A stretch of 54,680 nt of DNA. It comes from a bacterium. GTDB taxonomy: Bacteria; Calditrichota; Calditrichia; RBG-13-44-9. Both the position numbers and the translations under genes were made by a program. The stretch is from NCBI GenBank assembly GCA_020350205.1, contig CP070707.1:3978928-4033607 (forward strand). Reading direction: 5' to 3'. The notes below the pieces were generated by a model. That model was not told the origin of the DNA and made no database searches. It was given only the letters and a program-made list of their open reading frames with translations. This document shows positions 3,366-18,152 of the stretch, piece after piece (position 1 is the first letter of the stretch; the number at the start of each line of letters is the position of its first letter).

Positions 3366-4130
3366 TTAATTTTTATTATCGATATCTTTTTGAATTCGTT
3401 GATTTAATTCCAGTAGATTCATCTTTCCTAAATCACCGCTGCCTTTCTGCCTGACCGAGATTTGCTGATTTTCCGCTTCCTGATCTCCAACAATAATCAT
3501 ATAGGGAATCTTATTTACCTCGGCTTCCCGAATTTTATATCCCACTTTTTCATTTCTACTATCGATTTCAGCTCGAAACTCCTCTTTTAGCAGCGCTTCA
3601 TAGACCATCCGGGCATACGAGTGATGGCGCTCCGAAATGGGAATAACAATAGCCTGAACCGGGGTAAGCCAAACCGGAAATGCACCCGCATAGTGTTCAA
3701 TGAGAACGCCAAAAAATCTTTCAACAGATCCCATTAAAGCACGATGAATCATGATCGGCTGATGAGGCTGACCGTCTTCTCCAATAAATTCCACCTGGAA
3801 GCGTTCCGGCAGATTAAAATCTACCTGAATGGTTGAGCATTGCCAGGAACGTCCCAGAGAGTCTTTTATTTTTATATCGATTTTAGGGCCATAGAAAACA
3901 CCCTCACCGGGATCAATACGATAGGGTAGACCACTCTTGTCCAATGCATATTTCAAAGCTTCGGTCGCTTTGTCCCAATTTTCCACCTCACCGACAAATT
4001 TCTCTGGCCGGGTGGAAAGATATATCTCATATTCGCTAAAACCAAAAGTTTTCAAAATATGCAGGGTGAAATCCAAAACCCTGGATATTTCTTCGTTCAA
4101 ATTATCGGGCGTACAAAAAAATGTGTGCAT
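3366..4130 (-). CDS. thrS: Threonyl-tRNA synthetase, C-terminal part (downstream of frameshift)
   Basis: This frame encodes the last ~250 residues of ThrRS. It contains class II motif 3 (IHRALMGSVERFFG, which includes a zinc-ligand His) and the C-terminal anticodon-binding domain (WLTPVQAIVIPIS to the end). It overlaps the N-terminal frame at 4102-4130. Translation from the Met at 4130 is probably an artefact: CTPDNLNEEI directly continues the DDAHIF of the upstream frame. The two parts together make 639 residues, the normal ThrRS length, if one base of the A run at 4115-4121 is removed. The most likely explanation is a sequencing or assembly error, because the enzyme is essential and no second copy is seen here. 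Confidence 0.9.
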   Translation of the reverse strand: MHTFFCTPDNLNEEISRVLDFTLHILKTFGFSEYEIYLSTRPEKFVGEVENWDKATEALKYALDKSGLPYRIDPGEGVFYGPKIDIKIKDSLGRSWQCSTIQVDFNLPERFQVEFIGEDGQPHQPIMIHRALMGSVERFFGVLIEHYAGAFPVWLTPVQAIVIPISERHHSYARMVYEALLKEEFRAEIDSRNEKVGYKIREAEVNKIPYMIIVGDQEAENQQISVRQKGSGDLGKMNLLELNQRIQKDIDNKN

Positions 4131-5286
4131 CGTCCTGTGTAAATCCCCGCACCCGCATTAATCCGTGAAGTACCCCGGATCTCTCAAACCGATAGACTGT
4201 CCCCAATTCAAATAACCGGATAGGTAAATCCCGGTAACTTCGGATCCCATTCTTATATATCGTGATATGGAACGGACAATTCATGGGTTTAAGCTGATAA
4301 TCTACCTCTTCTACCTCCATAGGAGAAAACATATTTTCCCGGTAAAAACCGGTATGACCGCTGGTTTTCCATAAATCAAGCTTTGCCACATGAGGCGTGT
4401 AGATCAGTTCGTAACCATGTTTGTAATGTTCTCGAATCGTAAATTCTTCCATAATTCGCCTCACCCGCGCTCCTTTAGGATGCCAGAGAATTAGACCATT
4501 TCCCACATTTTCCTGAATGCTAAATAAATCCAGCTGTCTACCTAATTTTCGGTGATCGCGTTTTTTAGCTTCTTCCAGCCGGTGAATGTGCTCTTCCAGC
4601 AGTTTACGCTTAGGATAGGAAGTGGCGTACAACCGCTGCAGCATTTTATTTTTTTCATCACCCCGCCAGTATGCACCGGCTACATTCAGCAATTTAAAAT
4701 TTTTTCCTATTTTCCCGGTCGATGGTAAATGGGGTCCACGACACAGATCGGTGAAATCCCCCTGGGAATATGTAGAGACACCATCTTCCAACTCTTGAAG
4801 AAGATCTAGTTTTAGGTCTTCGCGGCGTTTATTAAAATATTCTACTGCCTCTTTTTTATTCCACTCTTTTCTAACAATCGGATAATCTTCGTCAACAATT
4901 TTGCCCATTTCTGATTCGATTTTTTCGAAGTCTTCAGGACTGATTGCATGCTCCAGCTCAATATCGTAATAGAAACCATCGTCAATTGGAGGTCCGATGC
5001 CGAACTTGGTTTCAGGGAAAACTCTTTGAATCGCATGGGCCATCAAATGGGCTGAACTATGCCAGAAAACATCCCGTCCCTCTTCATCGTCAAATGTAAG
5101 AAAGCGTATTTCTGCATCACTCGTAATCGATTCAGGTAAGCTTCTAACTTCACCGTTTACCAAAATACCGGTAGCCTCTTTCTGAATTTTATGGTTCAGG
5201 GTTTTCAAAATATCCAATCCTGAAACACCTTTTGGAAAGGACTTGGTGCTGCCATCCGGAAATTTTATGTTGATTTTTTCGGCCAT
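4102..5286 (-). CDS. thrS: Threonyl-tRNA synthetase, N-terminal part (ends early by frameshift)
   Basis: This frame encodes the TGS domain (about 1-65), the SAD editing domain (HSSAHLMAHA, an HXXXH metal site, and FYYDIE), and the start of the class II core (GLILWHPKGARVRR; MNCPFH with the zinc-binding Cys; motif 2 RFERSGVLHG). It then leaves the family sequence at DDAHIF and stops 4 residues later. The break falls exactly at a run of seven T on the coding strand (4115-4121); six would keep the frame. ThrRS charges tRNA-Thr and edits Ser-tRNA-Thr. The gene heads the infC operon, 26 bases before infC. Confidence 0.93.
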   Translation of the reverse strand: MAEKINIKFPDGSTKSFPKGVSGLDILKTLNHKIQKEATGILVNGEVRSLPESITSDAEIRFLTFDDEEGRDVFWHSSAHLMAHAIQRVFPETKFGIGPPIDDGFYYDIELEHAISPEDFEKIESEMGKIVDEDYPIVRKEWNKKEAVEYFNKRREDLKLDLLQELEDGVSTYSQGDFTDLCRGPHLPSTGKIGKNFKLLNVAGAYWRGDEKNKMLQRLYATSYPKRKLLEEHIHRLEEAKKRDHRKLGRQLDLFSIQENVGNGLILWHPKGARVRRIMEEFTIREHYKHGYELIYTPHVAKLDLWKTSGHTGFYRENMFSPMEVEEVDYQLKPMNCPFHITIYKNGIRSYRDLPIRLFELGTVYRFERSGVLHGLMRVRGFTQDDAHIFLYAR

Positions 5287-8713: not shown

Positions 8714-10045
8714 TTAAGGAGTTTTAGTCCAATTTATTACAGCAGTTTTGGTCTCACCGCCGAATTTGATCCCCATCTCCTTGAGCATCTGAAACGGGGG
8801 AATGCCCCCGGCAAATATGAATATAAAATCGTTGGGAATTTCAATGGTCTTATCTTGGTGTTCAATAGTTACTGAGTGATCCTTAATTTCAGTGGGACTT
8901 GAATTAAACAGCGGTTTAATCTTTTTTCCATCTATCATTTCAAGAATACGGTCCTGGTTTTTCTTTTTAATCCTGAAAAACTTTTCCTTCCTATAAGAGA
9001 TAGTGACGCTATTTCCTTTCTGCCGGGCCAATCCAACGGCTGCCTCTACTGCACTATCGCCGCCACCCACCACCAAAATTTTCTTATCCTGATACGATTG
9101 AGCATCAATAAGTTGATACAGGACTTTAGATTTATTTTCTCCGGGGATTTCTAATTTTCGGGGAGTTCCTCTTCTTCCCATTGCCAGAACGACGTAGGTT
9201 GATTTAAATTCTCCCTCACTGCTTATTACATTAAATAAACCATTTTCCTTGCGAACGCCGGATACGTAAATGCCAGAGTGTATAATAATTTGATGCTTAT
9301 TTATAATGCTATACCAGATTTCAAGAAGTTGCTCCTTTTCCAATTCACTTTTATTTAAGCGCCCGTATAGCGGTATTTCCACCGGCTGAGTCATAACCAG
9401 TTTTTGTCGCGGGTATTTTAATATTGTACCTCCCATATCCTGTTGATCAAAAATTTTATATTTGAGACCGTTCCGATGGGCTTCCAGTGCAGCACTCATT
9501 CCCGCAGGCCCGGCACCCACGATAATAAGATCATCTGGTGCATCGGATGGTGTTTCTCCCCGCTGTGAGACAATTTGTTGTACCACTCGTTTTCCCTGTT
9601 CAACAGCGTTTCTTATCAGAGATATCCCTCCTAACTCGCCTGCAATAAATAAGCCCGGGACGTTAGTCTGGTTAAACTCATCCATAATCGGAATATCATC
9701 TCTCTCTTTAATATCACCTAATCCAACTTTTAAAGCACCCACCGGGCAGGCGGGCTCACAAAATCCGTGTCCGATACAACGCAAGCCATTGATAACAGTA
9801 GCTTTGCCATATACTATTCCCAGCACGTCACCTTCCGGGCAGGCAAGCACACAGGAACCACATCCGATGCAAAAAGTTTGGTTGATAAAGGGAAACTGAG
9901 AAGTTGGTCTGTCTATTCCCAGTTCTTGGGCTTCTTTTTTTCTTTCCCTATTCTGTTTCTGGGAACGTCTGAATTTTATATAATAAGGTATGAAAATAAC
10001 CGCAATTAAAATGATTGTAAAATACCAAATAATAATAGATTCCAT
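8714..10045 (-). CDS. Membrane-anchored ferredoxin-FAD/NAD(P) oxidoreductase
   Basis: The 443-residue protein has an N-terminal membrane helix (about 4-22), then a double-cluster ferredoxin domain. The first cluster motif is complete (Cys59, 62, 65, 69). The second is CIGHGFCEPAC (Cys90, His93, Cys96, Cys100), with His in place of the second Cys. A thioredoxin-reductase-like fold follows: FAD site GAGPAG (177-182) and a second Rossmann site GGGDSAVEAA. The redox CXXC of thioredoxin reductase is absent. It is the last gene after the cytochromes and barrel, 88 bases downstream on the same strand. I infer that it passes electrons between NAD(P)H and ferredoxin-like centres near the membrane and the cytochromes, direction unknown. 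Confidence 0.85.
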   Translation of the reverse strand: MESIIIWYFTIILIAVIFIPYYIKFRRSQKQNRERKKEAQELGIDRPTSQFPFINQTFCIGCGSCVLACPEGDVLGIVYGKATVINGLRCIGHGFCEPACPVGALKVGLGDIKERDDIPIMDEFNQTNVPGLFIAGELGGISLIRNAVEQGKRVVQQIVSQRGETPSDAPDDLIIVGAGPAGMSAALEAHRNGLKYKIFDQQDMGGTILKYPRQKLVMTQPVEIPLYGRLNKSELEKEQLLEIWYSIINKHQIIIHSGIYVSGVRKENGLFNVISSEGEFKSTYVVLAMGRRGTPRKLEIPGENKSKVLYQLIDAQSYQDKKILVVGGGDSAVEAAVGLARQKGNSVTISYRKEKFFRIKKKNQDRILEMIDGKKIKPLFNSSPTEIKDHSVTIEHQDKTIEIPNDFIFIFAGGIPPFQMLKEMGIKFGGETKTAVINWTKTP

Positions 10046-10133
10046 ACTCTGCAGCGTTATTTATAAAATAGGTTAATGCTCACTACAGATGCCCGTGTCT
10101 GAGATATATTTCATATCAGGATTTATGTTTCAC

Positions 10134-11759
10134 CTAAAGTCTATATCCGATTTCTGCGAGCACTCGGTGACCCTTCATGTCATCACCCCAGTCGTATTCA
10201 TACTGTCCTGACAAGAAAAACTTTCCAATTATATCGCTGAGAAAATTTATCCTAGCCCACTGATTTATGCGCTGACTGTCGTCAGCTTTTAAGCTGTATC
10301 GATACCCTCCGTATGCCAGATCGATGTTGATCCGATTCCCAAAGTATTTTCCAACTATAAATGAGTAGTTAATCCCGTTGGTAAAAAAATTTGAAAATCC
10401 GGCAGCATTGATATACAGTCTAAAATTTGGCATCAGGAAATTAACTTTACTAAGCCCTGCGGCATATGATTTGGTAGTCTCCGTATCCGTATCCCGTTTT
10501 CGAATACCAAAATTTCCAAAAAGTCGGTAATTTTGTGGTAAAATAACGGTTACATTCCCCCTGAATCCCTGCCGGAGGGCTTCATCAAACAGGCTGTCTG
10601 CCAGTGAACGGGTTTCATAGGTCAGATAATTCTGACGATTATCGTACATGGCCCCAACCATAAGATTTTTTAAAATGTTCCATTGAGCCGAGACAAACAG
10701 ATTTGTCAAGGAGACATCTTCTCCGGCAACCTCTTTTCGCCAGGACCTATTCAAGTCCATTTCGGCACTCTGAAATATTGTCCATTTCTGAGACAAATAA
10801 AAACTATTCTGAAAATAAATAAATTCTCTGCTGACGGTACTACCATGATACTCGCCAGCTGCAGCCAGTGTCGATTCAAAACGTCCTCCGCTGTAGTCTC
10901 CGCTGACATAATTCAAATAGGCACCATACTTTTGGATAGAAGTTTGAAAACTGCTATACTGCCATTGGGGTTGTGAACCTCCGAAGATGCCGGCGTGAAA
11001 TTTGGTTGAGGCATTATATTGAAGTAACAAGCCATCAATATAACCGACCCCGCTAAATTTATTGGATATAATCCGACCCATCTGATAATTTATAGGAGCA
11101 TTTATATTGTCATAACTAAATGAAATTTCATATATCCGGTTCCGCCATTCCTGTTCGGGCGCATTACTGTTCAGGGAGCGTGCTCTCTGATTATGTCTTA
11201 ACCGTGCACGGATCCTTAAATTAAAATCCTTTCCCCATAATCGTCTGCCGCGTAAACTCAACCTCAAGGTTGGTTGACTAAAGTCTAATTGGGTTTCGTA
11301 AAGGTCTTTCCAGTAATAATATTGTAGTGAGAAGGTTCCACTAAAAGGTGACCGTTTTCTTCCGGAACTGGGGGGCGTTATCGGTTTAATATCTTTTTGA
11401 ATATCGGGTTGGTTTCCTTTAATTCCTGTGGTGACTGACACTGTATCTGGTTTTGCATTGCTTTTGTGCATATACGCTTTATCACCCGCTTGTATGGAAA
11501 GCGTTAAATTAGTGATGCTGCAGGATGCAGAATGATCGGACACATACTTAACTTCTATTTCAGCTACCGTCTGACCATTTCTCTTGATCAAGAGACGGTC
11601 GCCAACATTCAGCCCTTGCAATTTACCGGCGTCCAGATAAACATTTTCAGCTGAGATATATTTGACCTGGTACACTTTCGACTGGTTATTTTGCGCCGTT
11701 AAGAGGTTTATAAAAAAAATTATCAGTATAATATAGACAAAAATCTGAATTTTAGTCAT
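10134..11759 (-). CDS. Outer-membrane beta-barrel candidate of the cytochrome operon
   Basis: The 541-residue protein has a signal peptide (MTKIQIFVYIILIIFFINLLTAQ), then a small domain (about 25-90) with VYLDAGKLQGLNVGDRL, like the C-terminal fold seen in FlgT-type proteins. A Pro/Ser linker follows, then about 380 residues of alternating aromatic strands ending in GYRL. The start at 11759 is preferred over an upstream ATG because GGAGG lies just before it. It overlaps the 10-heme cytochrome gene by 8 bases, so the two are translationally coupled. Position suggests the porin of a porin-cytochrome conduit, but I cannot assign it to the MtrB or OmbB families. Confidence 0.75.
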   Translation of the reverse strand: MTKIQIFVYIILIIFFINLLTAQNNQSKVYQVKYISAENVYLDAGKLQGLNVGDRLLIKRNGQTVAEIEVKYVSDHSASCSITNLTLSIQAGDKAYMHKSNAKPDTVSVTTGIKGNQPDIQKDIKPITPPSSGRKRSPFSGTFSLQYYYWKDLYETQLDFSQPTLRLSLRGRRLWGKDFNLRIRARLRHNQRARSLNSNAPEQEWRNRIYEISFSYDNINAPINYQMGRIISNKFSGVGYIDGLLLQYNASTKFHAGIFGGSQPQWQYSSFQTSIQKYGAYLNYVSGDYSGGRFESTLAAAGEYHGSTVSREFIYFQNSFYLSQKWTIFQSAEMDLNRSWRKEVAGEDVSLTNLFVSAQWNILKNLMVGAMYDNRQNYLTYETRSLADSLFDEALRQGFRGNVTVILPQNYRLFGNFGIRKRDTDTETTKSYAAGLSKVNFLMPNFRLYINAAGFSNFFTNGINYSFIVGKYFGNRINIDLAYGGYRYSLKADDSQRINQWARINFLSDIIGKFFLSGQYEYDWGDDMKGHRVLAEIGYRL

Positions 11760-12552
11760 TGTTTCCTCCTTCTGCAGAACCGGTGGGGTGGCAATTATAA
11801 CAGGCATTACTTTCATAGATGTAACCGTTTACTTCCCGGTGCTCATTATCCATCCTGTCCTTGCGGTGTTCGTGGCAATTCAAGCAACTGAAAATCTGGA
11901 AATTCCCTGGTGAAACATGACAATCGCTGCACTCATTCCATTCCCCTGAATGAGTTCCTGAAAATATCGGGAAAATGCCATCGTGTTCAGTGAATTGGGC
12001 AGGTTTCCAGCCGTAAAAACTATGGCAGATTTCACAGGTCTTTGGAAATCCGGAACTTTGATGGTTCGGACTTTGGACACTATTATAATCTTGAATATGA
12101 CATATGTAACATTCCGATTTAAGGGGGGAAAATTCTCCCTCAATGTCGCTGTAATGACAGGCACCGCAATCGAGTCGGGCGTGTTTCCCCAAAAGCGGGA
12201 AGGTTGTATTGGCATGGGCTACTGAGGGGTCGATAACCGTCCAGCTTATCGGTGTGTGACAGGATTCACACCATGGACCCAGCCGGGCCTGATGAATATC
12301 TGTATGGCATGCCCTGCAGTCCGAGCTTTGATTATAAAAATTTTTTATGTCATGACAGATATTGCAGTTAAATCCCCTATGTTTACCAGTTAATGGGAAA
12401 TCTGTTTTAGAATGGTCAAAATTAATTTGTAACCAATCCTGCGCATTATGACAGGTTTGACAATCCATATCCATTTGCTCATGTGGCATATCCTGACTGA
12501 ATAAGATAGTTTGACCAGTCAAAAGTGACAGAAAAATAAGTGTTCTCATCAT
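11752..12552 (-). CDS. Decaheme c-type cytochrome, exported
   Basis: The 266-residue protein has a signal peptide (about 1-19) and ten CXXCH heme sites: CQTCH, CNICH, CRACH, CESCH, CGACH, CYICH, CEICH, CSDCH, CLNCH and CYNCH. Many His residues lie in FDHSKT and GKHRGF type segments that probably supply distal ligands, as in cytochrome c3/c7-like proteins. Both ends align with the ends of the neighbouring 22-heme protein (MPHE near the start, EW.ECSDCH and ACYNCHPTG near the end), so the two are paralogues. It lies 8 bases from the 22-heme gene and overlaps the barrel gene. It probably acts in the periplasm or at the cell surface. Confidence 0.92.
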   Translation of the reverse strand: MMRTLIFLSLLTGQTILFSQDMPHEQMDMDCQTCHNAQDWLQINFDHSKTDFPLTGKHRGFNCNICHDIKNFYNQSSDCRACHTDIHQARLGPWCESCHTPISWTVIDPSVAHANTTFPLLGKHARLDCGACHYSDIEGEFSPLKSECYICHIQDYNSVQSPNHQSSGFPKTCEICHSFYGWKPAQFTEHDGIFPIFSGTHSGEWNECSDCHVSPGNFQIFSCLNCHEHRKDRMDNEHREVNGYIYESNACYNCHPTGSAEGGNND

Positions 12553-12560
12553 GATAATTC

Positions 12561-14255
12561 CTATTTTTCCCCGGTAGGATGACAGTTATAACATGCCTGA
12601 CTGTTATATTGATAACCTTGAACCCCCTGGTGTTTACCGGCGAGATCCACCGGATCATTATGTTCATGGCAAAGTATGCATTCAAAGGTCAGATAATTAT
12701 TAGGATCAATGTGGCAATCGGTACAGAGATTCCATTCTCCCTGATGCCTTCCGGAATAGATGGGAAAGTATTGAGTGTCATGATTCCAGTTGGTTTGATT
12801 CCAGTTTGTAGTGTTATGGCAGGACTCACACTCTACAGGAAATCCGGCTGCAGCATGATTGGGATTTTGGGTATTCTGATAGTCATCTTGATGACAGGAA
12901 TAACAGTCCGTGGGTGTATTGGTGTAACCTTGTGAATGACAGTCGATGCAGTTTAAACTGGCGTGGGCGCCGGTAAGAGGGAAATTTGTGTTGGAATGGT
13001 CAAATGTTGCTGGAGACCAGGCCACGGTGCTATGACAGATGGTGCAATCATGGCTGAAACTGTTCTGCACATGATTTGGGTCCAAGGTGGTATTAAAATC
13101 ATTCTGGTGGCAAGAGAAACAATCTGTCGGTGTGTTCACATATCCGTTCTCATGACAATCTATACATTGAAGACTCAGATGAGCACCTGTTAACGGGAAT
13201 GCGGTATTGGCATGATTAAAGGTCGCCGGAGACCAGGTAAGATTATTGTGGCAAAATAGACAATCCCGGTCAAAATTATTCACAACATGATTTGGATCGG
13301 AAACAGCTGTGTAGTCCTTTTCATGACAGCCATAGCATTCTCTCGGCAAACCACTGGTCTGATTGTTTATATGACAAGAATTACAGGTCAGAGTTTGATG
13401 CACCCCGGTCAAGGCAAAACCGGAGGCCTCGATATGGTCAAAAATAGCATCACCCCAGCGAGTGGTGTTATGGCACAGTTCACAGGTGGTTAAGAATCCA
13501 AATATGATATGGCTGGGATTGGTAGCTTGTTGATAATCCTGAGAATGGCAGGCATAACACTCCAAGGGTGTACCCTCATAAACCTGAGAATGACAATCGA
13601 TGCATTCAATCCGTTTATGGGCTCCCTCTAATTTAAAATTCAATGAATGCTGGTAAATGGCTTTCTGCCAGCTAGATGACTGAATGGGATGGCATTCTTC
13701 ACATTGAGGGGCGAATGCAGCTGCACGGTGATCAGGATTTTTGCTGGCCAGATAAATATCCATATGGCAACCGTCGCATTCGAGAGGCAGGCGAGCGATA
13801 TCTTTTTTTTCAGGACTGTAATGACAGGCTTCACAATCGACAACGGCGTGAACGCCGACAAGAGGAAAGTTGGTGCGCTGGTGTTCTTCCAGCAATTCAC
13901 GTCGGTTCTCCCAGCTGAGGGGAGTATGGCAATTATCACAGCGCAGACCCAATTCCCCCTGATGAATATCGGCATGACAATCTACACAGGAAGTGCCGAC
14001 ATGGAAAAATTTCAGGCTCTCGTGGCAGATTCGGCATTGAACATCTTTATGACCACCCCAAAGGGGAAATCCCGTCTTCGAATGGTCAAAAGAAATGTTT
14101 TTTTGATTAACCGTCCAGTTTGTGGTAGAGTGACACAATGCACAATCAAATGATATATTCTCATGGGGCATTTCTTTTTCCTGCTGGAACGCAGGAGAAT
14201 AAACCAGAAAAATTATTATCCCTATGGCGATGAAAACTCTAGTTAATTTTTGCAT
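12561..14255 (-). CDS. 22-heme c-type cytochrome with tandem triheme modules
   Basis: The protein (564 residues from the ATG at 14255) has a signal peptide and 22 CXXCH motifs. From about residue 174 the sequence is built of modules 72-74 residues long. Each starts with a PNH or PDH and holds three CXXCH motifs, a W..A.F.H segment and an FPLTGAH segment. Two central modules (12864-13295 in DNA) are nearly identical. The ends match the 10-heme paralogue, so the size difference (12 hemes) equals four modules. An AGGAG site lies 10 bases before the ATG; GTG 14258 and TTG 14261 are alternatives. The start overlaps the end of the 20-heme gene, which suggests coupling. Confidence 0.92.
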   Translation of the reverse strand: MQKLTRVFIAIGIIIFLVYSPAFQQEKEMPHENISFDCALCHSTTNWTVNQKNISFDHSKTGFPLWGGHKDVQCRICHESLKFFHVGTSCVDCHADIHQGELGLRCDNCHTPLSWENRRELLEEHQRTNFPLVGVHAVVDCEACHYSPEKKDIARLPLECDGCHMDIYLASKNPDHRAAAFAPQCEECHPIQSSSWQKAIYQHSLNFKLEGAHKRIECIDCHSQVYEGTPLECYACHSQDYQQATNPSHIIFGFLTTCELCHNTTRWGDAIFDHIEASGFALTGVHQTLTCNSCHINNQTSGLPRECYGCHEKDYTAVSDPNHVVNNFDRDCLFCHNNLTWSPATFNHANTAFPLTGAHLSLQCIDCHENGYVNTPTDCFSCHQNDFNTTLDPNHVQNSFSHDCTICHSTVAWSPATFDHSNTNFPLTGAHASLNCIDCHSQGYTNTPTDCYSCHQDDYQNTQNPNHAAAGFPVECESCHNTTNWNQTNWNHDTQYFPIYSGRHQGEWNLCTDCHIDPNNYLTFECILCHEHNDPVDLAGKHQGVQGYQYNSQACYNCHPTGEK

Positions 14256-15915
14256 CACCAATTTTCTCCTGTTTTAAGGATTTACCATGACAATCAATGC
14301 AATTTGATGGTATTGGTTTATAACGGACAAAGGTTATATTCGATTTGGTTTCGGTTGGATGACACTTGTTACAGCTGATTCTCTCATGGGCACCTTCGAG
14401 TTTAAATAGAGCATGGATATCATGATTAAATCTTTCGGCTTTCCAATCCCGGGGAGTATGACATTTCTCACAGGTTTGCGATTTCTTATTTCCGCCTGAG
14501 CTGGTTGCAAACTGGTTATAATGAGGATCCTGGTGGCAATTCTCACAATTTTTTGCAGTGTGAGTAAACAGTATGAAATTTTCAGAAGATTTCTTATGAC
14601 AGGATTGGCAGGGAGCTTTGGCATGTTTGAGTTCGAGCGGAAAGCCGGTTCTAGAGTGATCGAATGTAATAACCTGCCAGCTCTGAACATCGTGACAACC
14701 GCTACAACCCACTTCATCCATATATTTGGTAACCGACCCTTTATGAGGATCAGAATGACAGTCGATACAATTTGTAGAAGGAAAACTGAATTTCACTAAT
14801 TCGAAGGAAGTTCCCTCTTTGAGTTTATAATGGCACCGATTACAGGGAGTAGCCAGATGTCCACCTTCAAGTTTAAAAGAGATCTGGTTATGTTTTTCGA
14901 TGGTAAATAAAACAGGTTTGTATCCATATACAGTATGGCATTCCTGGCAGTCTCCCTGTGTTGGTCGATGAGTAAATTGTCCTTTGTGGTAATCATCGTG
15001 GCAGTCTAAACAACGGTTAAACCTAAGACTCGCCAATGATTTTCCCGGCAAATGGCATTTTTTACAGGTGACCTCGCGGTGTTTACCGTTCAAAGGATAC
15101 CGGGTCATTGAATGATCGAAACTGTCACTTTCATAATTTGTCCAACCGGTAGTATTGTGGCATTTGGCGCAATTCTGACCGAATTTATTCTTATGAATAT
15201 CATTATGACACCCGCTGCAGTTATTATATGTGAGTCCCGTCATTTTTAAATATGTTTTGTCATTATCAGCCTGGCCATCGGTAAGAGGAAAATGACATTT
15301 TACACACGAGACCAGGGTATGTTTACCGGTCAGTGGATACCTGGTATTACTGTGTGTGAAAAATTCTGCGGGCTTCCATTTCTGAAAAGTGTGACAGTTC
15401 TGGCAGAACAGTGAAAGTTGACCCCGGTGTTCATCAAAATGACAAGTATTACAGCGTGAAACCAGCCCAAGGAAAGTTTTATCGGGGTTTTTTTTTGCCC
15501 GTGTGATTGTCTCTATTTGAATGATATGTTTTGCTTGATGACAGTCTCTGCATTTTAGTTGAGCATGTTTTCCCTCGAGAACAAAGCCGGTCAGCTGATG
15601 ATTAAAGTTTTCCTGACCATTTTCCCAATAGATTAGGTCAAAATCCCTTCCGTGATGTTCCACATGGCACTTTTCGCACTCCCTGTAGGCTGCATTTGAA
15701 TGCAAACCTATATTCTCATCGATTCTTTCTTTAAGTACACGATGACACTTAAGACAATTATCGGCCGCTATTTTCTGTCCTATTCCATGACATTCGGAAC
15801 AATTTTTTAAACCCTCCAGTTGTGCATGCGACTGATGCAAATCACCCGGTGAAAGTTGACTGAATCCAGTCGACCAGAAAGATAGAAGAGCGAACAGACC
15901 GTATCTTAAATCCAT
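14239..15915 (-). CDS. 20-heme c-type cytochrome, first gene of the cytochrome operon
   Basis: The 558-residue protein has a signal peptide (LFALLSFWSTGFSQ) and 20 CXXCH motifs spread over its length, with repeated RYPLTGKH, RYPLNGKH and FDHSRTGFPLELKH segments that supply further His residues. This is the pattern of large cytochrome c3/c7-like multiheme chains. It heads a run of three cytochrome genes with overlapping or nearly touching ends. No clear Shine-Dalgarno is present before the ATG, but a near-consensus sigma-54 promoter lies about 90 bases upstream. The role is probably electron storage or long-range transfer across the periplasm or outside the cell; the substrate is unknown. Confidence 0.92.
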   Translation of the reverse strand: MDLRYGLFALLSFWSTGFSQLSPGDLHQSHAQLEGLKNCSECHGIGQKIAADNCLKCHRVLKERIDENIGLHSNAAYRECEKCHVEHHGRDFDLIYWENGQENFNHQLTGFVLEGKHAQLKCRDCHQAKHIIQIETITRAKKNPDKTFLGLVSRCNTCHFDEHRGQLSLFCQNCHTFQKWKPAEFFTHSNTRYPLTGKHTLVSCVKCHFPLTDGQADNDKTYLKMTGLTYNNCSGCHNDIHKNKFGQNCAKCHNTTGWTNYESDSFDHSMTRYPLNGKHREVTCKKCHLPGKSLASLRFNRCLDCHDDYHKGQFTHRPTQGDCQECHTVYGYKPVLFTIEKHNQISFKLEGGHLATPCNRCHYKLKEGTSFELVKFSFPSTNCIDCHSDPHKGSVTKYMDEVGCSGCHDVQSWQVITFDHSRTGFPLELKHAKAPCQSCHKKSSENFILFTHTAKNCENCHQDPHYNQFATSSGGNKKSQTCEKCHTPRDWKAERFNHDIHALFKLEGAHERISCNKCHPTETKSNITFVRYKPIPSNCIDCHGKSLKQEKIGDAKIN

Positions 15916-16004
15916 ACGTGAAAATCAAATTCAGTTAGAAAATATATTTCATGGATAATTTATTCAATTTTATAATCAGGAGCATTACAAAAAACAAATC
16001 AATC

Positions 16005-16021
16005 TGCAAATATATTGCCAG
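16005..16021 (-). promoter_or_regulatory. Sigma-54 promoter upstream of the cytochrome operon
   Basis: The minus strand reads CTGGCAATATATTTGCA. It has the -24 TGGCA and -12 TTGCA elements with the required GG-N10-GC spacing. The start point would be near 15994, leaving about 80 bases of leader before the 20-heme gene. A nearly identical element is found at 53926-53942. Confidence 0.75.
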
Positions 16022-16144
16022 CTAAATATTATATTAAATTTATTAATGTGGAATTATAATTGGTAAATTGCGAAAAATATTTACACAATTATGTCTAAAA
16101 TTGTGTGCTATTGCGAGAATTGTATCTTATAAATTATTCAATGT

Positions 16145-17044
16145 TCAAAAAATCCAGAAATATCCTACATAGACTGCCACCAGGATGTGAATTAGCATGA
16201 TGATATACATGATTATTGCGAACGGTTTGTGAATAACATGCCAGTAGTGAAAAAGTTGGTGGATGGCGTTCCACATGGAGATTCTTCGCTGCAGCATTGC
16301 CTTGCGTTTAATTGTTATTAACATCTGACTGACTTCCTGAAATGACAGGTTTAGTTTTTTTATCAAATGTTTTCTGAGTCGATAAGAACGGATAGGCTTG
16401 AGAGCATCATTAAAAATCATGGATAAAAATGCAAATATCAATCCTTTTTCAGGCCGAATGGGAGGGAAAATAGAAGCTTCGATGGATTCTAGTTGCTTTG
16501 GTTCTATTCTAAATTTATTGTAGATTTCCTGTGCCAGATTTTGATTCATCTGTTCCAGTTCTTTAAAATCGATCTCCTGCCCCGCAATCGTTCTGGGAAT
16601 CTGTTTATAAAGATATCTTCCTAAAATACCACTTAGAGCCACCGCAATCATCGACCAGAAGCTAACGGCTATTAATCCCTGCACTTTAAAAGATGAATGC
16701 AATATGATCAGGAGCGGTCCAATTATTCCAAAATAGATGTGCACCCGGAGCCAGCTGCTTAAATACCCCAGATTCTGTAGCCTCCGGATTCTTTTGCGAA
16801 TCGAATAGAGTAACATGAAGATCATCATAGCGCTGCCAATAACACCGAAAGCATGACCGATCATTCCTGCCGGACGAAGACTACGATAATCAGGATGATG
16901 GGGTTGCTCCCGGAGGGATGTTGAATAAAAATCAGTACCGGTGATCAGAAAATAGACGTAGATGCTGAAAGAGACTAGATACAGAATAATCAAAATCACA
17001 TCGAGTAAACTGGTTTTGCGAGACTCCGTGGTAGATGATTTCAT
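16145..17044 (-). CDS. Polytopic membrane protein, probable b-type heme redox protein
   Basis: The 299-residue protein has about five membrane segments: two near the N-terminus (residues ~14-35 and ~63-85), two in the middle (~97-118 and ~122-145) and one at the C-terminal end (~270-295). A cytoplasmic-like helical insert lies at about 150-250. His residues sit at helix positions suited to heme (RVHIYFG, ILHSS, HVIHKPF, LIHILVA), as in cytochrome b561 or ferric-reductase-like proteins. I cannot name the family. It is on the same strand just upstream of the cytochrome operon (229-base gap), so it is a candidate quinol-facing partner. Confidence 0.65.
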   Translation of the reverse strand: MKSSTTESRKTSLLDVILIILYLVSFSIYVYFLITGTDFYSTSLREQPHHPDYRSLRPAGMIGHAFGVIGSAMMIFMLLYSIRKRIRRLQNLGYLSSWLRVHIYFGIIGPLLIILHSSFKVQGLIAVSFWSMIAVALSGILGRYLYKQIPRTIAGQEIDFKELEQMNQNLAQEIYNKFRIEPKQLESIEASIFPPIRPEKGLIFAFLSMIFNDALKPIRSYRLRKHLIKKLNLSFQEVSQMLITIKRKAMLQRRISMWNAIHQLFHYWHVIHKPFAIIMYIIMLIHILVAVYVGYFWIF

Positions 17045-17336: not shown

Positions 17337-18152
17337 TTAATCCGGGTTCGAAACAAAAACCACAATCGCTTGTTGATCAGGTGACTCTATTTTTATTCCT
17401 TTCTGACCTGCAGACTCAATATTTTCAAATTTTATATCGTCGGCTTTCAGCTTTGCGGTGAAAGATTCTATAGTACCAGATTCAAGCTTATAAACCAGCG
17501 CAGGTCTTTGAAGAACTGTATCTTGACTAAAATCCAACCATAGTCCTGCCTGATATAAATATGCCGCACCTGAATCGGTCTTATTCTTATGAGGGTTCAA
17601 AAATCCGAGTTGATTCCAAAAGGCAATGGACTGGCCTATATCCGGGGTTGGAATTTTTAAATGATCAAAATTTCCCAGGAAAAATTCTGGATTTTTTTTT
17701 GGTTTGGATATCAACTTGGAATCGAAATTAATGAGGGTAATGTTAATATCTGCAGGATTTTTGAGAACGGCCGATTTCAATTGTCCTTCCTGATCATAAA
17801 TCAGATCAAAGTCTATTCCTTTGGCCTGCATTCTATTTATTCTATTCGGAAGAGACCGACCGTAAAAAGTTAACGCAGGGGAGGGGAATTCATTTTCACT
17901 CAACATATAAAGTTGGGAGCCATCGGATATAAGTGCCCAGGGCACATTTGCATTGGATTGAACGTTTAGCTTGGAATAATGTAATTTTTCGTAAAATGAC
18001 AGAGATTTTTCTAAATCATGACATGACAGCGAAATTTGACCTAAATCTCCAATCAGTGCAGAATTTGATGACTGCTGGATGTCACTCTCTCTCATACAGC
18101 CCTGAAAAATTAAGAAAATCATGATTAAATAGAAAACAACCTTTTTCTGCAT
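17337..18152 (-). CDS. Lipoprotein with two VOC (glyoxalase-fold) domains
   Basis: The 271-residue protein starts with a lipoprotein signal (IFLIFQGC, cleavage before Cys19). Two repeats of the vicinal-oxygen-chelate fold follow: GDLGQISLSCHDLEKSLSFYEKL-like at about 34-150 and LGNFDHLKIPTPDIGQSIAFW at about 158-270. VOC proteins include glyoxalase I, extradiol dioxygenases and resistance proteins; the metal ligands are not clearly conserved here, so I do not assign a reaction. The gene is flanked by intergenic regions and seems monocistronic. Confidence 0.75.
   Translation of the reverse strand: MQKKVVFYLIMIFLIFQGCMRESDIQQSSNSALIGDLGQISLSCHDLEKSLSFYEKLHYSKLNVQSNANVPWALISDGSQLYMLSENEFPSPALTFYGRSLPNRINRMQAKGIDFDLIYDQEGQLKSAVLKNPADINITLINFDSKLISKPKKNPEFFLGNFDHLKIPTPDIGQSIAFWNQLGFLNPHKNKTDSGAAYLYQAGLWLDFSQDTVLQRPALVYKLESGTIESFTAKLKADDIKFENIESAGQKGIKIESPDQQAIVVFVSNPD

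Follow-up and report, generated by a model that had tools for sequence, protein, structure and literature searches.

Which function could require 52 heme motifs in a single bacterial gene cluster? This question is raised by a stretch of 54,680 nt from a Calditrichota genome (assembly GCA_020350205.1, contig CP070707.1, positions 3,978,928 to 4,033,607; hereafter the window, with coordinates counted from its first nucleotide). Three neighbouring open reading frames (ORFs) contain exactly 20, 22 and 10 CXXCH motifs, and all other ORFs of the 54.7 kb window have at most one each. An initial annotation of this DNA had reported the three cytochromes, and its motif counts proved exact; the genes are on the minus strand at the coordinates that it gave, apart from two starts that are revised below. 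The gene order on the minus strand is a polytopic His-rich protein, the 20-heme, 22-heme and 10-heme cytochromes, a beta-barrel protein and a ferredoxin-flavoprotein. We suggest that this operon probably encodes an electron conduit across the cell envelope which connects to reduced nicotinamide adenine dinucleotide (phosphate), NAD(P)H, in the cytoplasm or to ferredoxin, and is as such a variant of the porin-cytochrome systems.

Conservation of the gene set

Relatives of the His-rich protein (termed b protein below) were sought in one genome per species, which yielded 490, and the best 80 were taken with their flanks. Neighbouring genes were mapped using hidden Markov models built from Calditrichota members. 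The best 80 of the 490 relatives stem from Calditrichota, Zixibacteria, Acidobacteriota (Holophagae and Thermoanaerobaculia), Krumholzibacteriota, Eisenbacteria, Neomarinimicrobiota, KSB1, Ignavibacteria, Electryoneota, Schekmanbacteria, Abyssubacteria, WOR-3 and Marinamargulisbacteria. As fully covered we counted the 28 loci whose sequence extends 8 kb or more downstream and 3 kb or more upstream. Five core families, namely the b protein, the 20-heme cytochrome, a triheme-repeat cytochrome, the barrel and the flavoprotein, are all present in 25 of the 28 covered loci, distributed over about a dozen phyla. The neighbourhood described in the initial annotation is thus kept by relatives, in which the neighbours are not unrelated. 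Gene orders differ between lineages (b-20-22-barrel-flavoprotein, flavoprotein-b-20-22-barrel or b-flavoprotein-20-...), but the linkage is kept, and the conservation of the set far exceeds what chance would give. The His-rich gene had been placed merely next to a five-gene operon. The cluster itself stands, the number of five does not: separated from the 20-heme gene by a gap of 229 bp in the window, the His-rich gene directly abuts or overlaps it in relatives and is an integral sixth member.

Co-occurrence was evaluated in 98 genomes ranging from genus to domain level. All 24 barrel-positive genomes are also positive for the b protein, which overall is found in 32 of the 98 (P 2e-16 with genomes counted as independent, 0.002 outside the class). 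Moreover, the distances between pairs of members are correlated from family to family (Spearman 0.40-0.65). In the tree of b protein and flavoprotein, Calditrichota are split over three positions and Zixibacteria over four, and the window nests with Zixibacteria. The scattered positions point to horizontal transfer or old paralogues, with binning errors as a possible contribution.

Additional genes recur at these loci. A membrane-anchored TPR-like protein of ~200 aa is encoded inside the operon, beside the b protein or the flavoprotein, in Ignavibacteria and Electryoneota lineages (loci L114, L122, L127, L131, L134, L137 and others). Genes for a sensor kinase and an NtrC-type response regulator are found near the operon in loci L062, L066, L071, L076, L100, L104, L106 and L123.

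The inner-membrane module

The b protein (299 aa, 16145..17044, minus strand) is predicted to be a five-helix membrane protein that forms a diheme b-type step through the inner membrane, based on its AlphaFold2 model, conserved histidines, weak family matches and charges. The model (predicted local distance difference test, pLDDT, 92.5) contains transmembrane helices at residues 13-35, 61-85, 95-116, 124-148 and 258-292 as well as a basic helical insert of ~110 aa, which its charges (19 K/R) place in the cytoplasm. Among 69 relatives H102 is conserved in more than 90%, and H116, H272 and H286 do not vary at all. The histidines form pairs 14 residues apart, His102/His116 on the third and His272/His286 on the fifth helix, and owing to this spacing they are likely ligands of two stacked b hemes. 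Members of the family show weak matches to DUF4405 (17 of 24), Ferric_reduct (12 of 24) and cytochrome b561 (7 of 24). A search of the sequence against solved structures returned nothing at E up to 1.

The flavoprotein (443 aa, 8714..10045, minus strand) consists of an N-terminal transmembrane helix, two iron-sulfur (Fe-S) motifs, motifs for flavin adenine dinucleotide (FAD) and an NAD(P) site. It had been regarded as a possible extracellular exit. This does not hold: behind the helix comes FRRSQKQNRERKK, by which the Fe-S/FAD body is placed in the cytoplasm; the flavoprotein would hence be the cytoplasmic end of the chain. The Fe-S motifs are CxxCxxCxxxCP and CxxHxxCxxxCP. In the second motif a His replaces the second Cys and is nearly invariant, and a subtype in Zixibacteria, KSB1, Ignavibacteria and Electryoneota has lost the second Cys of the first motif, too. 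Homology to ferredoxins is found beside a FAD-NAD(P) part that resembles YpdA and thioredoxin reductase (TrxR), with E 4e-52 to YpdA. In the comparison with the curated YpdA/TrxR equivalogs, the score of 177 bits stays below the cut-off of 339.9 and the match ends at position 271 of 316. The C-terminal FAD motif (PGLFIAGELGG...) precedes the N-terminal one, which departs from the standard order of FAD-N, NAD and FAD-C. In agreement, positions 313-371 of glutathione reductase align to residues 119-176 of the flavoprotein, and the TrxR match ends before the end of the profile. The FAD parts are thus apparently rearranged in a manner resembling circular permutation. Relative to YpdA, a bacillithiol disulfide reductase, and TrxR, the FAD and NAD(P) domain is shared, whereas the membrane anchor, the fusion to two Fe-S motifs and the relocated FAD motif are special to the operon protein.

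An electron entry at the inner membrane raises the question whether the chain is fed by quinol. The b protein might oxidise or reduce the quinone pool like CymA, CbcL or ImcH, with the flavoprotein tuning this step or feeding in from the side. Its weak matches to b-type cytochrome families would fit, and according to passages of PMC6295460 quinol oxidases supply the known outer-membrane conduits. However, 27 of the 28 covered loci contain the flavoprotein family, almost always as a direct neighbour. This speaks for an obligate redox partner, and we therefore regard a quinol-linked conduit as rather unlikely. Inner-membrane electron entry into a cytochrome chain is shared with CbcL, ImcH and CymA; in contrast to these, the b protein lacks a c-type heme motif (CXXCH), belongs to no curated Pfam or NCBIfam family and comes with a flavoprotein partner.

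Multiheme cytochromes

By inspection, all three window cytochromes start with a signal peptide. The 20-heme protein (558 aa, 14239..15915, minus strand) appears as a chain of c7-like triheme repeats. The 22-heme protein (12561..14255, minus strand) is composed of expandable 3-heme repeats of ~73 aa. The 10-heme protein (11752..12552, minus strand) is its paralogue; in heme spacing it corresponds to head and tail of the larger protein, with the four middle triheme units missing. It is present in part of the family and absent from many relatives' loci. A recent tandem duplication of the 22-heme repeats is not supported, as the repeat DNA is 45-60% identical. Atypical CX3CH or CX4CH motifs do not occur in the window cytochromes. 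Histidines beyond CXXCH amount to 26 for 20, 25 for 22 and 11 for 10 hemes, a surplus that suggests bis-His hemes; a polymer of the GSU1996 type would have one His-Met heme in each domain.

Heme numbers were derived from complete ORFs of 63 relatives for the 20-heme family and of 45 for the 22-heme family. Exactly 20 hemes are found in 51 of the 63, 17 and 23 are rare, and 60 of the 63 counts equal 2 modulo 3. The 22-heme family ranges from 13 to 73 hemes, and 36 of its 45 counts equal 1 modulo 3. The respective binomial P values of 3e-25 and 2e-10 presume independent sequences, which these are not. Heme numbers of both families shift in triheme steps. The operon cytochromes hence consist of whole triheme units as is typical of a triheme polymer of the GSU1996 type. 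The profile of the 20-heme family against solved structures has its best match in 3ov0, presumably the GSU1996 dodecaheme, followed by HmcA, MtrF and MtrA. The length of the 20-heme protein would suit a roughly constant distance in the periplasm. The largest triheme-repeat cytochromes, both in the position of the 22-heme gene, contain 73 (L075:11674-17031) and 67 CXXCH (L080:6629-11554).

The outer-membrane barrel

The outer-membrane protein (541 aa, 10134..11759, minus strand) had been annotated as a beta-barrel candidate, and structure prediction bears this out. The AlphaFold2 model derived from 35 sequences (pLDDT 86.7) comprises a signal helix, a presumably periplasmic six-strand beta domain (29-99), a disordered linker and a barrel of 22 strands (139-540). 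No matching family is found in Pfam or NCBIfam, and comparison of the sequence with solved structures gave nothing at E up to 1. Foldseek returns only generic outer-membrane barrels with a query-normalised TM-score of at most 0.41, and MtrB is not among the top 50.

We therefore compared profiles. Using hhalign, the family of the operon barrel aligns over the whole barrel (98.3%, E 2.5e-14) with A7, a family of Pcc-type porins which these genomes also encode and which adjoins a TIGR01904 OmcB-type cytochrome. Controls reach 0.3% for Porin_O_P, 3.2% for Toluene_X and 0.2% for the reversed profile, which rules out a chance resemblance of barrels. Owing to this match the operon barrel appears to be a divergent member of a Pcc-type porin line.

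The general logic of a barrel combined with multiheme cytochromes is also that of MtrCAB, MtoAB and PioAB. Membership in this group was rejected, because the family MtrB_PioB (PF11854) has no match in the window barrel, in 17 relatives or in the whole host genome, and a 10-heme MtrA equivalog is missing. With the MtrA/DmsE-type decaheme model TIGR03508 the scores are 29.7 and 41.9, below its cut-off of 192.2, and the larger cytochromes have 20 and 22 hemes. A reading as an Mtr system thus falls away.

The likeness to Geobacter Pcc (OmbB-OmaB-OmcB) lies in a barrel gene beside multiheme cytochromes and in the distant homology of the barrel to the Pcc-type porin family A7 of these genomes. According to passages of PMC4245776, Pcc porins have 18-22 strands and the periplasmic cytochromes 5-14 hemes. 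The 22 strands of the operon barrel are within this range; of the cytochromes, the 10-heme protein alone is, as the others have 20 and 13 to 73 hemes. Moreover, the operon has no OmcB-type lipoprotein, its barrel carries the additional N-terminal beta domain, and it brings its own predicted diheme b protein and ferredoxin-flavoprotein.

The ancestry of the barrel also bears on a second alternative. GSU1996 of Geobacter is a chain of four triheme domains for which a role as periplasmic electron store was proposed (PMC10138318). The multihemes of the operon could likewise hold charge as a store or buffer, with the barrel as a structural or transport neighbour, and the triheme-polymer architecture with 3ov0 as best profile match is in line with this. 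However, the barrel is linked in 25 of the 28 covered loci and its porin line is one that occurs beside cytochromes, so that we consider a store improbable. As in the Geobacter heme 'nanowires' GSU1996 and GSU0592, the cytochromes are c7-type triheme chains; unlike there, the hemes are fixed at 20 or form open-ended repeats, and their genes go together with those of a barrel and an inner-membrane module.

Gene starts and genomic context

Genes of the operon had been described as overlapping or nearly touching. The overlaps persist, but one is smaller than supposed. The barrel gene most likely starts at codon 20 (11759) instead of the ORF start at 11816, with AGGAGG as ribosome binding site directly upstream and the signal peptide right behind. 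This reduces the overlap with the 10-heme gene from 65 to 8 bp. The 22-heme gene probably starts with the ATG at 14255, replacing the alternative TTG at 14261. After both changes the overlaps are 8 and 17 bp. A scan for promoters and terminators gave signals near the shuffled background and was uninformative. Upstream of the b protein, a VOC/glyoxalase-fold, lipoprotein-like protein is encoded in the window (17337-18152) and in a genome of the same genus (L022:1746-2537). The threonyl-tRNA synthetase of the window (3366-5286) is seemingly split into overlapping frames (4102-5286 and 3366-4130), either by an assembly frameshift or by a real lesion.

The host genome (a single contig of 4.06 Mb) has one copy each of the operon barrel family and the b protein. 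A second cluster at ~1388.3-1391.4 kb of this contig (G000:C1; L161:4326-7445) encodes a 404-aa barrel with an 11-heme and a 7-heme cytochrome in a layout like that of Geobacter Pcc. The 7-heme cytochrome matches TIGR01904 (CxxxxCH/CxxCH domain), which we take to be a domain of Geobacter OmcB-type proteins. The barrel family of this second cluster is found in 23 of 60 genomes sampled; relative G021 carries both systems side by side, and relative G017 both barrel types. Further large multiheme proteins of the host are an 874-aa protein with 19 motifs (L158:6065-8689) and a 680-aa protein with 11 motifs and a membrane segment (L159:6432-8474).

The initial annotation had not recognised the gene set and proposed it as a candidate new conduit. 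No matching published operon was found; the barrel, being a distant relative of Pcc-type porins, is not wholly new. Searches of the main texts of open-access papers turned up no description of the set, including the relevant passages of PMC4245776, PMC6295460, PMC5317091 (Caldithrix abyssi), PMC7399161 (bioanode genomes), PMC6137239 (Chocolate Pots) and PMC7005843. Passages of PMC6137239 mention a pcc-like system in Caldithrix and a Geobacter-like pcc porin in C. abyssi, and passages of PMC7005843 porin-cytochrome operons in Zixibacteria (FeGenie). These reports may refer to the second cluster type or, generically, to the operon described here. The Pcc of Ignavibacterium album (IALB_1837-1840) is not the same system, since the 14-heme protein and the atypical-motif cytochrome, as far as described, do not fit.

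Proposed route and significance

In the route that we propose, which could run in either direction, the membrane-anchored flavoprotein would exchange electrons with NAD(P)H of the cytoplasm or with ferredoxin at its FAD and Fe-S centres. The five-helix protein with its two stacked b hemes would then carry them over the inner membrane to the 20-heme wire in the periplasm. The wire would hand them over to the extendable triheme-repeat cytochromes, and these would exchange them, at the 22-strand barrel or through it, with an acceptor or donor outside such as iron minerals, humics or other cells. Sequence and models show which genes make up the set, that their linkage is kept, the fold of the barrel and its porin ancestry, and the changes of heme number by whole repeats. 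The route itself presupposes that the cofactors are loaded, that the partners dock, that the steps follow one another as listed and that the outer membrane is crossed.

Some observations weigh against such a conduit. A lipobox or clear outer-surface signal is found in none of the three window cytochromes, and a lipobox is almost absent in relatives. The model of the b protein has no fold match in the PDB (Foldseek, nothing below E 0.4) and its sequence matches are weak; since Foldseek gives no such match, the diheme b assignment is one that we infer. Finally, the host retains cytochrome oxidase and, by inspection, alternative complex III genes besides the separate Pcc-like cluster. Due to this other respiratory gear the operon may be one of several branches and need not be the main route. 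An export of reducing power for periplasmic repair or detoxification (thiols, peroxides, metalloids) by a YpdA/TrxR-like flavoprotein via a ferric-reductase-like b protein would agree with the closest relatives of the flavoprotein and the weak Ferric_reduct matches, but is very improbable, as the conserved set has no terminal reductase or thiol relay and 40 to 90 hemes plus an outer-membrane barrel are unnecessary for such a role.

The trans-envelope conduit wired to NAD(P)H or ferredoxin is hence the reading that we prefer. The same unnamed gene set in about a dozen phyla points to a probably widespread, so far unnamed electron exchange with the surroundings. It is possible, albeit doubtful, that this conduit represents one more major class of outer-membrane electron conduits, equipped with a redox enzyme of its own in the cytoplasm, being quinone-independent, composed of a fixed 20-heme and extendable triheme wires, and partly spread by transfer among mostly uncultured phyla. 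The constancy of the 20-heme protein set against the triheme-step variation of its partner leads to the hypothesis, open to test, of a length ruler in periplasmic heme wires. If our reading is true, one specific flavoenzyme of the cytoplasm would be coupled to an outer-membrane conduit, a link that the quinone pool usually provides. Moreover, the gene set would then provide a marker for extracellular electron exchange in Calditrichota, Zixibacteria, Acidobacteriota, Neomarinimicrobiota, Krumholzibacteriota, Ignavibacteria and others, in which current tools seek Mtr or Geobacter genes.

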